33,262 bases of DNA from Rhodospirillaceae bacterium. Lineage in GTDB: Bacteria > Pseudomonadota > Alphaproteobacteria > GCA-2731375. Of the stretch, positions 26,926 through 33,262 are shown piece after piece; the first letter of the stretch is position 1, and every line of letters begins with the position of its first letter. The notes under the pieces were generated by a model, which was not told where the DNA came from, made no database searches, and saw nothing but the letters and a program-made list of their open reading frames with translations. The stretch lies in NCBI GenBank assembly GCA_002731375.1, contig PCBT01000011.1:4064-37325 (forward strand), given 5' to 3'. Made by a program: the position numbers and the translations under genes.

Positions 26926-27135
26926 CTAGAGCAAACCTTCCTTCTGGGCCCGCTTGCGTGCCAATTTGCGCGCGCGGCGCACGGCCTCGGCCTTCTCTCG
27001 CGCTCGGCGTTCCGACGGCTTTTCAAAATACTTCCGCATTTTCATTTCGCGGAAGACGCCTTCACGCTGCAATTTCTTTTTCAGGGCGCGAAGCGCCTGA
27101 TCGACATTATTGTCGCGAACACTGACCTGTACCAG
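26926..27135 (-). CDS. rpsU: 30S ribosomal protein S21, apparent CTG start
   Basis: Small-subunit protein S21, which sits near the 3' end of 16S rRNA and helps mRNA binding. The 69-residue product reads [20 protein letters not shown] at the start, [20 protein letters not shown] in the middle, and ends in an Arg/Lys/Ala-rich helix, all standard for alphaproteobacterial S21. The initiation codon should be the one before GTA-CAG-GTC, and here it is CTG (27133-27135). Shine-Dalgarno AAGGAG at 27143-27148 lies seven bases upstream, and an in-frame TGA stands just before that, so no ATG, GTG or TTG is available upstream; none occurs in the first 29 codons either. The protein is otherwise intact. 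A hairpin precedes the ribosome-binding site. Confidence 0.9.
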
Positions 27136-27182: not shown

Positions 27183-27433
27183 AGCCCATTATGTTGGACG
27201 TTTCAATGATATATTTCCAGGCAGGAAAAACAGGACGCACATAACCTTTCGCCAAGCATTACCAGCCGATTGAGCCGGGTTATAGCCCATAGGCGCAGCA
27301 ATGTGAAGCGCTGAGATGCAATCGCGGGAAGACATTTTCACGGCGGACCATGATGCATTACCATTCAACGCCGCATTGACGATCCACCGATTTAGTAGGA
27401 AGTTGTCCTAACTGTTCGAGAGGGGAGCGACAG
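27183..27433. other. Divergent non-coding region, rpsU / selenoprotein gene
   Basis: No gene seen. The stretch must carry the promoter for rpsU (minus) and for the selenoprotein gene (plus). TTGACG at 27376-27381 looks like a -35 but has no matching -10 at 16-18 bases. AGGGGAG at 27421-27427 is the ribosome-binding site for ATG 27434. Confidence 0.4.
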
Positions 27434-28330
27434 ATGGATCCACATACAGACGGCGGCGATACAAAGCCGGTTGGATATATGGAGCGGACACGGCTCTATT
27501 ACCGCGCCCTTGGTTATAGCAATGACTATATCTGGTCACACCATAATGACGCGCCCTTCGCCACGCTGAAGCGACCACTGGCCGAAAGCAAGCTGACGGT
27601 CATTACCACGGCAAGCCCGCCCGGCGGCCCACGGAATGGCAACCAGCGGCTTAAGGAAGTCTGGAGCGAGCACTTCGAACAAGCGCCGGCAGACTTGAAC
27701 ACGGAATTCAGTGCCTGGGACAAGGAAGCGACCCATACCAGGGACCGGGAGAGCTATCTGCCTGTCTTGGCATTGCAGGAACTGGTGGCGGCGGGGCGCA
27801 TCGGTAGCCTAACCACGCAATTTCACGGCGTGCCCACGACCTATAGTCAACGCCAAACCATTGAACAGGATGCCCCGGAAATCGCCCGTCGCTGCCGCTC
27901 GGACGGCAGCGACGCGGCATTGCTGGTCCCGCTGTGACCGGTCTGCCACCAAACCGTAGGTTTGGTTGCAAGAGAGCTCGAGACACAAGGCATCACTACC
28001 GTCATAATCGGATCAGCCCGCGATATCGTTGAATATTGCGGCGTTCCGCGTTTCCTCTACACCGATTTTCCTCTTGGCAATCCCTGCGGCTCGCCCTGGG
28101 ACCGGCAAGCCCAGGCCCGGATCGCCCAGCAAGCCGTTACACTGTTGGAAACAGCGATTGCGCCACGCCATACCGAACAAGCCGCCGCCACCTGGCCCAG
28201 TGGGCACGCCTGGCGCCCCGGCTACAACTATGTCGGAGCAGAGAACGCGGCAGAGCTGGCGGCCACGGGCGCAGCAAGGCGCCAACGGCAGATGGACGAA
28301 CGGCGCGACGCGGATTCGAAAACCGGCTAA
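27434..28330 (+). CDS. GrdB/PrdB-like selenoprotein, UGA-encoded Sec at residue 168
   Basis: One continuous frame of 298 residues interrupted only by TGA at 27935-27937. The N-terminal part (VGYMERTRLYYRALGYSNDY, HHNDAPFATLKRPLAESKLTVITTASPPG) and the part after TGA (PVCHQTVGLVARELETQGI, IVEYCGVPRFLYTDFPLGNPCG) belong to one protein family, glycine/sarcosine/betaine reductase selenoprotein B and proline reductase PrdB homologues. Translation as Sec gives VPL-Sec-PVC, a U-x-x-C redox motif with Cys171. A SECIS-like hairpin follows the TGA directly. The Shine-Dalgarno AGGGGAG is strong. A ThDP enzyme gene follows by 85 bases. Members are thought to attack activated substrates with the selenolate; the substrate here is unknown. 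Read as two ORFs (27434-27937 and 27962-28330) the gene would be wrongly called broken. Confidence 0.87.
27944..27970 (+). promoter_or_regulatory. Bacterial SECIS element
   Basis: Hairpin just after the Sec TGA: TGC 27944-27946 pairs with GCA 27968-27970, one C/T mismatch, then ACCAAACC 27948-27955 pairs with GGTTTGGT 27959-27966, with apical loop GTA. The loop starts 18 bases after TGA and its first base is G, both within the accepted range for SelB-binding bacterial SECIS elements. Confidence 0.8.
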
Positions 28331-28415: not shown

Positions 28416-30116
28416 ATGGATACCGAAACAACCGAAGGCCACCGCATTCCAACCTATCGGGCCCTGGCACAAGACCTTAAGAACCTTGGGGTCGATACGG
28501 TATTCGGCCTGATGAGTGATGACACCGCTCTGTTCGCAGTGGAAATCGATACCCTCGGCATTGCCTTTTATGGCGGCCGCCACGAAAACAACACCATCGC
28601 CATGGCCGAGGGTTATGCCTCGGTCACCGGCAAACTGGGTATTGCGATCATCGGCCGGGGACCCGCCGCCGCCAATGGCCTGCATGCCGCCGTCTACGCC
28701 TCGCGCACCGGTTCCAAGGTGTTAATTATTTATGGCGAGATGGCCATAGGCAGTGGTGCCGTGAATACCATTGGCCCAGATTATAAGGCCTTCGACGCCC
28801 GCGGCGTCATGGCCGCGGCCGGCTTGCAGGCCTTTTCTCCCACCTCGCCCCAAGCCGCGCGCACGGCACTGGCGGATGCCATTGCCGCCGCCTCGCAGGG
28901 CACAGCAGTGACGCTACATTTACCGATCGATGTGCAAACCGCCGAAGTCCTGGTCCGCGACGACGATCCCGCCATCTCCCTGCCCGCCCTCATGGCACCC
29001 ACGGCAGCCCGGCCCCAGGGCATCAATGCGGCCATTGGCGTACTTGCCGACGCGCAGCGCCCCCTCATCATCGCCGGCCTGGGCGCCCATCTCGCTGATG
29101 CGGGAGAGCCATTGGAAAAGCTGGCGGAGAAAATTGGCGCGCTGCTCATCACGACGGTCCGGGGCAAGGACATGTTCCAGGGCAACCCGAATAACCTCGA
29201 TGTTATAGGCTCCTTCTCCCACTCCATGGCGCGCCGGCATGTGGAGCAGGCTGATTGTGTCTTGGTCTTTGGCGCCGGACTTAATCTTCTGACCATGAGT
29301 TTTGGCAATGCCCTGCCGCAGGTGCCGTTGATCCAAATTGACGCGGTACGCAGCAATATCGGCCGCTGGACCAGCGTCGATATCGCCCTGGTGGGCGATG
29401 CCAGATTGGTCGCCGAACAGCTTTTGCAGGCGGCACCGGAACGGTCGGAGGCCGGTAAACCGTTTCATGCCGCCGCCACGCGCAAGGATATCGCCGAATT
29501 TGATATGGCTTCTGATTTTCAGACTGCCCATACGGCCCATACCGTCGACCCCCGCGCCCTGGCCATGGAATTAGACCAGCTTTTGCCCAAGCAACGCAAT
29601 CTGGTTTACGACGCGGGCAATTTTCTTGGCGTGGTTCCCTATCTTTCTGTGCCCGGACCGGGGCATTTCAAGTTCACCTCTGAATTTGCCTCCCTCGGCA
29701 TGGGATTTGGCACCGCCCTGGGTGTCGCCAAGGCACGGCCCGAGCTGCCGACCGTCTTGCTTCTCGGTGACGGCGGTTTTTCCATGAGCATGAATGATCT
29801 TGATACGCCCGTACGGGAAGATCTGCCGCTGATCATCATCCTAATGAATGACTGTGCCTATGGCGCCGAGCTGCACTTGCTGCGCGCCCATCAACAACCC
29901 GTGGCCAAATCACTGTTCCCCGACGTGGATTTCGCCCCCGTGGCGGAAGCCTTTGGCTTCGAGGCTGTGACTATACGCTCGCTTGACGATTTAGCAGCTG
30001 CCGCGCCCAAGCTGGCGGATCCCCAAGGGCCGATTTTCTTGGATTGCAAGATCAATGCCGACATCGCCGCACCGTTTATGGGCGAGTTCGCGGCCTATGC
30101 GGAGAGCAATAAGTAG
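28416..30116 (+). CDS. Thiamine diphosphate-dependent enzyme (acetolactate synthase-like superfamily)
   Basis: A 566-residue three-domain ThDP enzyme of the acetolactate synthase/oxalyl-CoA decarboxylase/benzoylformate decarboxylase superfamily. The cofactor-activating Glu57 is in GGRHENNTIAMAEGYAS, the middle domain starts near RPLIIAGLGAHLADAG, and the Mg/ThDP motif begins at Gly451: LLLGDGGFSMSMNDLDTP ending at MNDCAYG. The usual Asn of the motif is kept. AGAGGA at 28403-28408 precedes ATG 28416; a nearer ATG at 28411 is out of frame. It lies directly downstream of the selenoprotein gene with the same orientation, making a probable two-gene transcript. The reaction (decarboxylation or carboligation of a 2-oxo acid) and substrate are not deducible. 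Confidence 0.85.
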   Translation: MDTETTEGHRIPTYRALAQDLKNLGVDTVFGLMSDDTALFAVEIDTLGIAFYGGRHENNTIAMAEGYASVTGKLGIAIIGRGPAAANGLHAAVYASRTGSKVLIIYGEMAIGSGAVNTIGPDYKAFDARGVMAAAGLQAFSPTSPQAARTALADAIAAASQGTAVTLHLPIDVQTAEVLVRDDDPAISLPALMAPTAARPQGINAAIGVLADAQRPLIIAGLGAHLADAGEPLEKLAEKIGALLITTVRGKDMFQGNPNNLDVIGSFSHSMARRHVEQADCVLVFGAGLNLLTMSFGNALPQVPLIQIDAVRSNIGRWTSVDIALVGDARLVAEQLLQAAPERSEAGKPFHAAATRKDIAEFDMASDFQTAHTAHTVDPRALAMELDQLLPKQRNLVYDAGNFLGVVPYLSVPGPGHFKFTSEFASLGMGFGTALGVAKARPELPTVLLLGDGGFSMSMNDLDTPVREDLPLIIILMNDCAYGAELHLLRAHQQPVAKSLFPDVDFAPVAEAFGFEAVTIRSLDDLAAAAPKLADPQGPIFLDCKINADIAAPFMGEFAAYAESNK

Positions 30117-30780: not shown

Positions 30781-32169
30781 CTAGATCACTGCCCGCTGGG
30801 CCGCGATTTGGTCGTTTCCCCGCAGATACTCATGTGTCGCCTGGGCTGTTTTTTGCGCCACGCTCAGACAGGTCGCAACGGATGGACCGGCAAAATAGTT
30901 ACCCGTCAAAAACAGCCCGCTTTGCCGGTCATGGCAGCTGCTCAACTGATCGATCAGGGCGCGGTGGCCAGCGCCGTATTGCGGCAAGCCGACGGGCCAA
31001 TGGCGCACCTTCGCCACCACCGGATCGGCCGAAACACCAAGAAGGTCACCGAATTCCGCCCGCACCAGATCGACCAATTCCGCCGCCGGCCGCCGCGCCA
31101 AATCAGGTGCCCTGACACCGCCGATATAGGCAGATACCGCGACATGGCCGTCGGGCGCGCGGCCAGGAAACATCGTGGAATTGAACTGGGAGCCTAGAAT
31201 GTTTTGGTTCTCGGCCTCCGCCGTAAGAAAGCCAAGGCCATCCAGAGGGTGCGCCACGTCCCCGCGCCGGTAACCAAGAAAAACCACCGCCAGGGGCGGC
31301 GCCTGAATTTGTGCTGCAGCAGCGGCGCCAGAGGGATCCACATCCGCGATCAGTTGCGCCGCGACATGGGCCTGGGTCGCGATGACGACAGCCCTACCTT
31401 GCATACGGCCATCCCTGCCCAGATCCACTTCGAAACCGCTCGGTGAAGCGGAAAAACGCCGCACGGCGACGCCGGTACGGACATCATCACCAAGGCCCAG
31501 GGCTAGGGAACTGGCCAAGGTCCCAATGCCACCGCGCCAGGAGAACAGTCTGCTGCCGGGCATCTTTCCGCCCTCGCGGCGGCGGTGCATGATGCCCAGG
31601 GTGACGGAACCGTATTTCTCCTCCAACGCCACCAGCATGGGGAAAATCGCGGCCACCGACAGTTCCGCCGCGCGGCCGCCGCCATAAATGCCTGCAACCA
31701 TTGGGTCCATGACCCGTTCGGCGAACTCCCGGCCAAAGCGCCGGGCGCAGAATTCCATGACGGATTCATCGGCATCCGGGCTACCGTGGGGCACCAGGAC
31801 TTCCAGCAATATTCGCAGTCTAGCCCATGGCGAGAGATAACTGGCAGTCAAGAAGCCAAATGCGCCCATGCCGATACCGGACAGTTGCCCACCTGAAACC
31901 AGGTAACGCTTGCGGATGCCATCGCCAAGATCGCAACGCAGATTTTCGAGACCCAAGTCTTGTGAAAACTCGTTGGCGGCGGGCACCAGGGCATTCATGG
32001 TGGAGGGGCCATGTTCCATGAGGAAACCGTCAAGGCGTTCCGAAACCGCGCTGCCGCCAAACTGGCGCTGGCGCTCCAATAAGACAACGCTATGCCCGCG
32101 CTGTTTCAGATCATAAGCCGTGGCCAGTCCGGAAACCCCACCGCCGATGACAATGACATCCGCCCTCAT
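30781..32169 (-). CDS. hemG: Protoporphyrinogen oxidase, HemY/PpoX type
   Basis: FAD-dependent oxidase of 462 residues that would turn protoporphyrinogen IX (or coproporphyrinogen III) into the porphyrin. FAD fold VIVIGGGVSGLATAYDLKQRG at 5-25 and GGSAVSERLDGFLMEHGPSTM at about 38-58 are typical of the PpoX/HemY/amine-oxidase class; VMDPMVAGIYGGGRAAELSV is a protoporphyrinogen oxidase hallmark, and FLTGNYFAGPSVATCLSVAQKTA closes the FAD site. The symbol follows the family name for this activity; it is the HemY type, unrelated to the flavodoxin-like E. coli HemG. Many alphaproteobacteria use HemJ instead, so a special role is possible. Its ATG overlaps the preceding radical SAM gene stop (ATGA). 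Confidence 0.82.
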   Translation of the reverse strand: MRADVIVIGGGVSGLATAYDLKQRGHSVVLLERQRQFGGSAVSERLDGFLMEHGPSTMNALVPAANEFSQDLGLENLRCDLGDGIRKRYLVSGGQLSGIGMGAFGFLTASYLSPWARLRILLEVLVPHGSPDADESVMEFCARRFGREFAERVMDPMVAGIYGGGRAAELSVAAIFPMLVALEEKYGSVTLGIMHRRREGGKMPGSRLFSWRGGIGTLASSLALGLGDDVRTGVAVRRFSASPSGFEVDLGRDGRMQGRAVVIATQAHVAAQLIADVDPSGAAAAAQIQAPPLAVVFLGYRRGDVAHPLDGLGFLTAEAENQNILGSQFNSTMFPGRAPDGHVAVSAYIGGVRAPDLARRPAAELVDLVRAEFGDLLGVSADPVVAKVRHWPVGLPQYGAGHRALIDQLSSCHDRQSGLFLTGNYFAGPSVATCLSVAQKTAQATHEYLRGNDQIAAQRAVI

Positions 32170-33262
32170 GTCCCATCCCGCCCCGTATTAGGCGCCGACG
32201 ACGGCCTGCCGCCACCAAAGCGGTGTTTAGCCACCTTGGATAATTCCAACATGACCTCGGCTGTGACCTCCCTACGCTGATCCGCCCGCACCTGGCTCTC
32301 GGCCCGCTGCCTGACAAAGCGGCGGACAAAGGATGGTATGCGCGCCAACCATTCCTCCGCCTCCGGCGTCCATTGAATGCTATTCGTGGCCGTCCCCAGT
32401 GGTTCGATCATCGGACCGCCCTGGGGTACGTAGGCGCAAAGGAAATCCTCACCCATCAAATCACCATTCCGGGCGAGAGGCCTGGCCCGGCAGCCGCCAC
32501 AAATCTTGCTGTATTCACAGGCCCCGCAGCGGCCCTGCAAAGCCGGCTGGCGCAACGTCTTGAACTGCGGCGCATCGCGCCAGATATCCGCGAAGCCTTG
32601 CTCTCGGATAGAACCGACTTCGTCCTCAATATACGGACACGAGGTGACACCGCCTGTTGGCGTAATGCGGCAATATCGGCTACCGGCCAGACAGCCGCCT
32701 GCCTCATAACCATGCGCCGCCGTGACCGGCCAATCGGGATCAAGCTCCCATGCCATGCGCTTGAAGTGGGGCGCGCATTTGGCCCGGACCATGATCTCCG
32801 TCTCCTCGCGCGCCGCAGCCGTCAGCCGGCGCATAACCTGCTCGTACGTCTGAGCCGAGATATTTGTGACCTTCTCACCCCGCCCGGTGCAGACCAGAAA
32901 GAATACATTCAAGACAAAGGCGCCCACGTCTTTCGCGAAGGCTATCATATTGTCAAGCTCATGCGCGGTATCGTCGGTCACAGAGAAATGGATTTGAAAG
33001 CGCAGATCATTGCGGCGACAGGCATCGAAGGCCGCCATGGCCTGCTCCCAACTACCCGGCAGGCCACGGAAGGCGTCATGGTCCGCAGGTTCGAGCGAAT
33101 CCAGGCTGATCCCAACACCCTGAAGGCCCGCCGCCTTTAACGCATTGACCCGGCGGTCATTCAGGCCCAGGCCATTGCTGCCCAGCACCGACATCAGGCC
33201 CAGACCATGGGCATGCGCCACCAGATCCGTTAGATCCGACCGCAGCAGCGGCTCGCCGCCGG
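32166..33262 (-). CDS. Radical SAM/SPASM protein with PCP_red-like C-terminus (5' end outside window)
   Basis: Partial: the gene enters from the window's right edge, so its CxxxCxxC cluster is not visible. The first residues seen are GGEPLLR, the SAM-binding GGE motif, then GISLDSLEPADHDAFRG. The SPASM domain has Cys-rich stretches (GGCLAGSRYCRITPTGGVTSCPYI; CGACEYSKICGGCRARP; FLCAY), holding auxiliary [4Fe-4S] clusters, as in NirJ/AhbC/AhbD heme-pathway enzymes. After a linker, WTPEAEEWLARIPSFVRRFV and the following helix resemble the PCP_red domain (57-kDa protochlorophyllide reductase subunit). ATGA overlap with the protoporphyrinogen-oxidase-like gene points to a shared tetrapyrrole job, such as side-chain decarboxylation or heme modification. 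Confidence 0.83.
   Translation of the reverse strand, partial: GGEPLLRSDLTDLVAHAHGLGLMSVLGSNGLGLNDRRVNALKAAGLQGVGISLDSLEPADHDAFRGLPGSWEQAMAAFDACRRNDLRFQIHFSVTDDTAHELDNMIAFAKDVGAFVLNVFFLVCTGRGEKVTNISAQTYEQVMRRLTAAAREETEIMVRAKCAPHFKRMAWELDPDWPVTAAHGYEAGGCLAGSRYCRITPTGGVTSCPYIEDEVGSIREQGFADIWRDAPQFKTLRQPALQGRCGACEYSKICGGCRARPLARNGDLMGEDFLCAYVPQGGPMIEPLGTATNSIQWTPEAEEWLARIPSFVRRFVRQRAESQVRADQRREVTAEVMLELSKVAKHRFGGGRPSSAPNTGRDGT

Follow-up and report, generated by a model that had tools for sequence, protein, structure and literature searches.

The gene at positions 27434-28330 of the window (i.e., the whole analysed stretch of 33,262 nucleotides) encodes a protein which belongs to a PrdB/GrdB-related clade apparently working without a pyruvoyl-type partner, and its in-frame TGA is, judged from its homologues, almost certainly decoded as selenocysteine, which would yield one whole protein. 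The outline as a whole, that of a stand-alone PrdB-like selenoenzyme in which the U168 selenolate and Cys171 would reductively cleave a substrate bond, is considered highly probable. The 298-codon frame on the + strand starts with ATG, ends with TAA and contains the TGA at 27935-27937 as its single internal stop, with PVCHQTVGLVARELE located immediately 3' of it and 130 sense codons following before the TAA. A preceding sequence-only reading had claimed one PrdB/GrdB-like frame split by this TGA, open behind it and gaining a U-x-x-C motif upon Sec decoding, all of which is borne out; the motif is U168-P-V-C171, a trait of PrdB-type proteins. Likewise, the full-length product of about 33 kDa expected there agrees with a computed mass of 32.9 kDa (Cys for Sec), while truncation at the TGA would leave 18.7 kDa. 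The features considered here are the following:

27420..27427, + strand: probable ribosome binding site, purine-rich, 6 bases 5' of the ATG (by eye)
27434..28330, + strand: gene for a predicted PrdB/GrdB-like selenoprotein of 298 aa, including U168, and ending in TAA (frame, profiles, homologues)
27935..27937, + strand: predicted selenocysteine codon 168, in-frame TGA (TGA or Cys codon in 109/109 aligned homologues)
27942..27973, + strand: predicted bacterial SECIS hairpin with core stem 27948-27955/27959-27966, loop GTA 27956-27958 and a weaker lower stem (pairing, covariation)
27944..27946, + strand: codon of Cys171, taken to be the resolving residue within UxxC
28416..30116, + strand: acetolactate-synthase-like TPP enzyme, 85 bases downstream of the PrdB-like gene (profiles)

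Selenocysteine codon and hairpin

Homologues were collected from 108 loci, 28 of which came from a search of related genomes and 80 from contigs of named genomes, whereby two pairs appear to be the same contig (contigs of equal length, identical 60-base segments). In the 109 homologues aligned, the codon matching the window TGA is TGA in 66, TGC in 33 and TGT in 10 cases and nothing else, the number of Cys codons (43/109) being raised in part by a search pattern which itself contained Cys. Residue 168, for which the sequence-only reading had suggested this comparison, is hence U or C only, and the homologues neither end at this column nor carry an unrelated residue but continue across it. The TGA is kept at 73% identity (L030) and 56% identity (L031), and the 65 TGA homologues other than the window gene range from 30 to 74% identity. 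Compared with L030, dN/dS was 0.15/0.94 upstream of the TGA and 0.20/0.96 downstream, and compared with L031 it was 0.36/1.10 downstream (dS upstream was not computable); as these ratios stay low, selection on the protein continues behind the TGA. Family matches were obtained in 15 of 41 related genomes (own genome included), and among the matches listed for these 15 genomes all that span the Sec column carry one TGA, the sole listed match without it being a fragment of 84 residues that lies at the beginning of a contig and starts behind the column. A sample of the class comprising 385 genomes, with at most six candidates scored per genome, yielded at least 97 matches at E <= 1e-20 in 50 genomes, of which 82 contain a single TGA, 14 have no stop and one has TAG; the latter was considered as an exception and rejected, as this match is a Cys form whose TAG is not at the Sec column. 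In a tree built from 153 distinct sequences (out of 156 found), parsimony required five Sec/Cys exchanges as compared to a mean of 37.5 with shuffled labels, and the midpoint root was Sec.

The hairpin behind the TGA is as previously described, with a G-first loop and 18 bases from the TGA to the loop, its core stem comprising eight pairs and its lower pairing being weaker. Taken alone, the window hairpin was not significant against synonymous recoding, as 8 pairs occurred in 5.5% of the shuffles and the MFE was equalled in 25%. Its significance comes from the family, because only the TGA set shows more pairing than expected from the synonymous-codon null: from 117 collected segments, two containing N were dropped, which left 69 TGA and 42 Cys segments, all distinct, in which stem 14-21/25-32 (counted from the T of TGA) showed a mean of 6.71 of 8 pairs for TGA genes (null 4.89 +/- 0.09) versus 4.95 for Cys genes (null 4.79 +/- 0.11). 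The mean MFE was -12.8 kcal/mol for TGA genes versus -7.5 kcal/mol for Cys genes, and the first loop base was G in 69/69 distinct TGA homologues versus 4/42 Cys homologues. Pair 18-28 of the TGA genes was G-C in 54, A-T in 12, G-T in one and C-G in two cases (Fisher p 2e-12) and showed no coupling in the Cys genes (p 0.74; 40/42 usable), while pair 15-31 gave p 4e-8 in TGA genes (66/69 usable) versus 1.0 in Cys genes (20/42 usable), all of these p-values ignoring shared ancestry. The region in which a SECIS search had been advised is, going by pairing and covariation, occupied by a selected SECIS, a statement which applies to the family and not to the window hairpin alone. The loop encodes residue 175, which is Val in 69/69 Sec forms versus 3/42 Cys forms; the RNA element therefore constrains the protein sequence, and this contrast shows how such an element shapes a protein.

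The selenocysteine machinery which the sequence-only reading had proposed to look for is present in the source genome (4.55 Mb, 115 contigs, 96.2% complete, 6.66% contamination), where selA, selB, selD and tRNA-Sec all score above cut-off. The tRNA-Sec reached 73.1 bits (cut-off 47) and has anticodon tca according to ARAGORN, a second match above the cut-off (50.5 bits) being a tRNA-Ser, and selB (426.5 bits, cut-off 242.25) adjoins selA (530.8 bits) on contig C63. The selD gene (L026, C46:47029-47955, 381 bits) has its own in-frame TGA (GGGUGCK), and SelD of the source genome is itself predicted to be a selenoprotein; a second selD-like gene (L027, C53:73670-74587, 313 bits) lies within a longer open frame of 756 aa. 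Considering the codon, the hairpin and the machinery, the ribosome would reach UGA codon 168, where SelB on the hairpin just downstream would deliver Sec-tRNA-Sec to give the 298-aa protein, a recoding step which is strongly supported by these sequence data. Even though standard gene callers would split the frame into two ORFs, the idea of two fragments separated by a nonsense mutation or a sequencing error appears already refuted, barring an error common to independent assemblies, by the TGA at the same codon in the 65 further homologues, the low dN/dS behind it and the selected SECIS. There is next to no chance that the source organism reads TGA as Trp or another ordinary amino acid, an assumption favoured by nothing beyond the in-frame TGA itself, as the column holds Cys and never Trp, TGA serves as stop in 5 of 22 chosen long ORFs of the window and the Sec machinery is present.

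Relation to PrdB and GrdB

Profile comparison identified TIGR04483 (PrdB) as the best model (74.7 bits, E 7e-21), which aligns with residues 86-240 and hence spans the TGA but has a cut-off of 300. The GrdB-type models gave 31-36 bits versus cut-offs of 65-800 (TIGR01918, GrdB: 31.4 versus 65.45), and the Pfam model GRDB (PF07355) gave 13.4 bits versus 22, while five paralogues and two Cys forms tested reached 76-143 bits with TIGR04483. For partner family PF09338, which we take to cover both GrdE and PrdA, the profile search found no member in the source genome, and among 43 other genomes with homologues, several of them carrying Cys forms and most of them without known completeness, 42 likewise lacked the family. 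The only match was obtained in the genome of L093 (titled Rokuibacteriota; proteins L213 and L214), and because of this match the search can be regarded as able to find the partner. The GrdA family PF04723 had 0 matches in the source genome, in a search where no positive control gave a signal. As a consequence of the scores below the family cut-offs and the missing partner protein, the initial assignment to the GrdB/PrdB family holds as to relatedness but not as to full membership.

It may be argued that the protein is a true D-proline reductase PrdB or a GrdB-type protein B, the partner of which was missed or has diverged beyond recognition, since TIGR04483 is the top profile, UxxC is common to both and marine surveys name such sequences PrdB (PMC2398784, as far as its available text goes). 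However, the shortfall against the PrdB and GrdB-type cut-offs, which extends to the paralogues and Cys forms, and the absence of PF09338 from 43 of the 44 genomes searched, by a search which the one match proves to work, render this very improbable. Among the relatives, D-proline reductase is reported to act together with a pyruvoyl peptide, and the same possibly applies to protein B of glycine reductase (PMC10298544).

Structure prediction with AlphaFold2 (41 sequences, Cys for Sec) resulted in a pLDDT of 92.3 and a pTM of 0.90 and placed residue 168 just before helix 169-184. Comparison with the PDB yielded 0 matches at E <= 0.001 by Foldseek and, by profile, only three chance-like matches up to E 10, the best having 0.23. 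The stretch around U168 resembles the Cys motif of Asp/Glu racemases, and two family members have hydantoinase-like genes close by; kinship to PF01177 was rejected, as hhalign assigned a probability of 1% against four PF01177 proteins of the own genome and no racemase was among the 50 Foldseek matches listed. A PF01177 racemase-type match of the same genome (L209, C46:2159-2767) contains one TGA and one TAG and is possibly a pseudogene.

The source genome has eight family members, i.e. seven besides the window gene, each with exactly one in-frame TGA, and their motifs are UPVCHQ in five, UPxCTR in two and UPLDHQ in one. Ten other genomes of the genus have 6-11 matches each, whereby one of the 11 in G004 is an 84-residue fragment. 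These copy numbers are high, because a 2016 survey reported 131 Sec 'proline reductases' in 110 organisms in its available part (PMC5029168), yet eight Sec grdB genes were described for one Synergistota strain, MFA1 (PMC10838667). Ten groups were delimited manually in the tree, and the seven paralogues it contains (out of eight) each fall into a different one; the copy on contig C9, which the tree does not include, resembles the UPxCTR group. The window gene groups with L138 (region around L030), some inner supports being low; its subfamily comprises loci with the titles Reyranella, Rhodospirillales and Gammaproteobacteria as well as Cys forms with the titles Bradyrhizobium, Stellaceae, Dankookia and Dehalococcoidia. 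Cys occupies U+3 in all members listed apart from a single subfamily, the 11 members of which (L142:255-1229 plus ten more genes) all have U-x-x-D (UPLDHQ), and since Asp replaces the resolving Cys here, this subfamily must work without UxxC. The paralogues probably divide substrates among themselves.

Gene neighbourhood and proposed reaction

Co-transcription of the PrdB-like gene with the downstream TPP enzyme gene is possible. A conserved operon of the two was considered and rejected, as a relative of the TPP enzyme was found near one of 108 loci (L079, 24% identity) and in one of ten longer regions (L145, 30%, convergent to the paralogue); in the case of L138, the nearest relative, only about 570 bases of contig follow the match, too few to judge whether a TPP neighbour is present. 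Within the window subfamily, Pfam annotation of 135 of 147 neighbour ORFs revealed no fixed partner, the counts among the best 25 of 65 families being TctC receptor 8, DAO 8, FAD_binding_2 7, MFS 4 and others 1-2. Considering all 156 family genes, which include a few loci of the same DNA, CoA-transferase III was found near 34 and acyl-CoA dehydrogenase near 32, in both cases without a background rate, and these proximities serve as leads only. Of the 36 CoA-transferase III ORFs, 30 share the strand of the family gene (median gap 168 bp), compared with 17 of 37 for acyl-CoA dehydrogenase. Elsewhere, family members lie near an amidohydrolase together with a hydroxyaspartate-aldolase-like gene (scoring below cut-off), near caprolactamase/hydantoinase-like genes (below cut-off) and near a GntG-type PLP aldolase (above cut-off). 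On contig C89 (L142:1258-4778), DUF169, Ala-racemase-N/D-serine-dehydratase-type and Amidohydro_3 proteins are encoded between two PrdB-like selenoprotein genes, which suggests D-amino-acid chemistry. In the window itself, the small basic ORF upstream at approx. 26926-27135 (- strand, divergent) is presumably ribosomal protein bS21, and we take the - strand ORFs 30781-32169 and 32166-33221 to be FAD amine-oxidase/protoporphyrinogen-oxidase-like and radical-SAM SPASM-like, respectively; the latter two overlap by 4 bases and are reminiscent of haem biosynthesis.

The suggested reaction mechanism assumes that the U168 selenolate would attack an electrophilic substrate atom, most likely a carbon with a leaving group as in glycine and D-proline reductase, that Cys171 would then resolve the intermediate to a selenenylsulfide and that a dithiol reductant would recycle the latter. 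Selenolate-on-carbon chemistry is reported for the relatives (PMC10298544, PMC10838667, available text), and the carbon-cleavage step is tentatively proposed by analogy with these. This chemistry may not carry over, because substrate activation in the known relatives takes place on a partner missing from the clade, and the U-x-x-D subfamily counts against a mechanism with a resolving Cys, as Asp replaces that residue. Alternatively, the protein could be a general thiol/selenol oxidoreductase, the UxxC of which acts on disulfides or peroxides without cleaving a carbon-heteroatom bond, an assumption in line with the motif as such, with the lack of a fixed metabolic neighbour and with the GOS survey, which places PrdB among thiol-oxidoreductase-type families in its available text (PMC2398784). 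Homology to C-N bond-cleaving enzymes, a fold search that reported no thioredoxin fold, the missing second Cys in one subfamily and the catabolic neighbours in several subfamilies speak against it and make it unlikely. Extending the proposal of a selenolate-driven cleavage to the clade, it is conceivable, and put forward with some reserve, that a large partner-free selenoenzyme clade, with about ten groups each in its own catabolic surroundings, performs reductive C-N/C-X cleavage in bacteria without known amino-acid reductase complexes, an uncharacterised reaction class hidden behind the label 'proline reductase'.

Earlier reports and related systems

Sec-containing 'PrdB' has been in print since 2005, when 42 sequences were reported from the Sargasso Sea (PMC1088965), followed by 235 sequences in GOS (PMC2398784) and by a later survey in which 'PrdB' made up 6.4% of 4324 selenoprotein genes (PMC9402790). 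The sequence-only reading, which called the use of this family outside the clostridial reductases poorly understood, had no means of knowing of these marine reports or of the seven paralogues. A literature search (many subscription papers and all preprints being outside it) yielded no study of partner-free, multi-copy PrdB-like selenoproteins and no description of the missing partner, of 6-11 copies per genome or of the SECIS/Cys contrast. If the proposal is true, part of the 'proline reductase' in ocean selenium surveys would be a family of other reductases and not proline reductase, and such reductases would be multi-copy in some alphaproteobacteria, with Cys forms instead in Bradyrhizobium- and Polynucleobacter-titled genomes. 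Since ordinary hosts are able to express the Cys forms, a direct test of the function is possible.

Regarding known systems, the Sargasso Sea and GOS 'PrdB' share with the present family the profile neighbourhood, UxxC, Sec with Cys homologues and the marine origin (PMC1088965, PMC2398784); described in this way rather than compared by sequence, they very probably include the family of 27434-28330. The available text of these surveys treats the family as proline reductase, and partner loss, subfamilies and copy number are not treated in it. The Cys forms from Bradyrhizobium-, Polynucleobacter-, Stellaceae- and Acidocella-titled genomes belong to the same family and have C-P-[VI]-C-H-Q at the same column, but, unlike the window gene, they use Cys rather than Sec, and their SECIS-like pairing does not exceed the null. 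Clostridial D-proline reductase PrdB (TIGR04483) resembles the window protein in the homology of residues 86-240 and in having Sec within UxxC, whereas the window product has 298 aa compared with 238 positions of the model and its genome lacks a PrdA-type partner family. Finally, GrdB, GrdF and GrdH of glycine, sarcosine and betaine reductase and FarB of fluoroacetate-reducing Cloacibacillus are homologous in their C-terminal part, and for GrdB/FarB the available text of PMC10838667 proposes an attack of Sec on the alpha-carbon and gives several paralogues per genome, as found here; in contrast to the window protein, which is without such a partner, they have GrdE/FarE-type partners, and their models comprise 431-435 positions.
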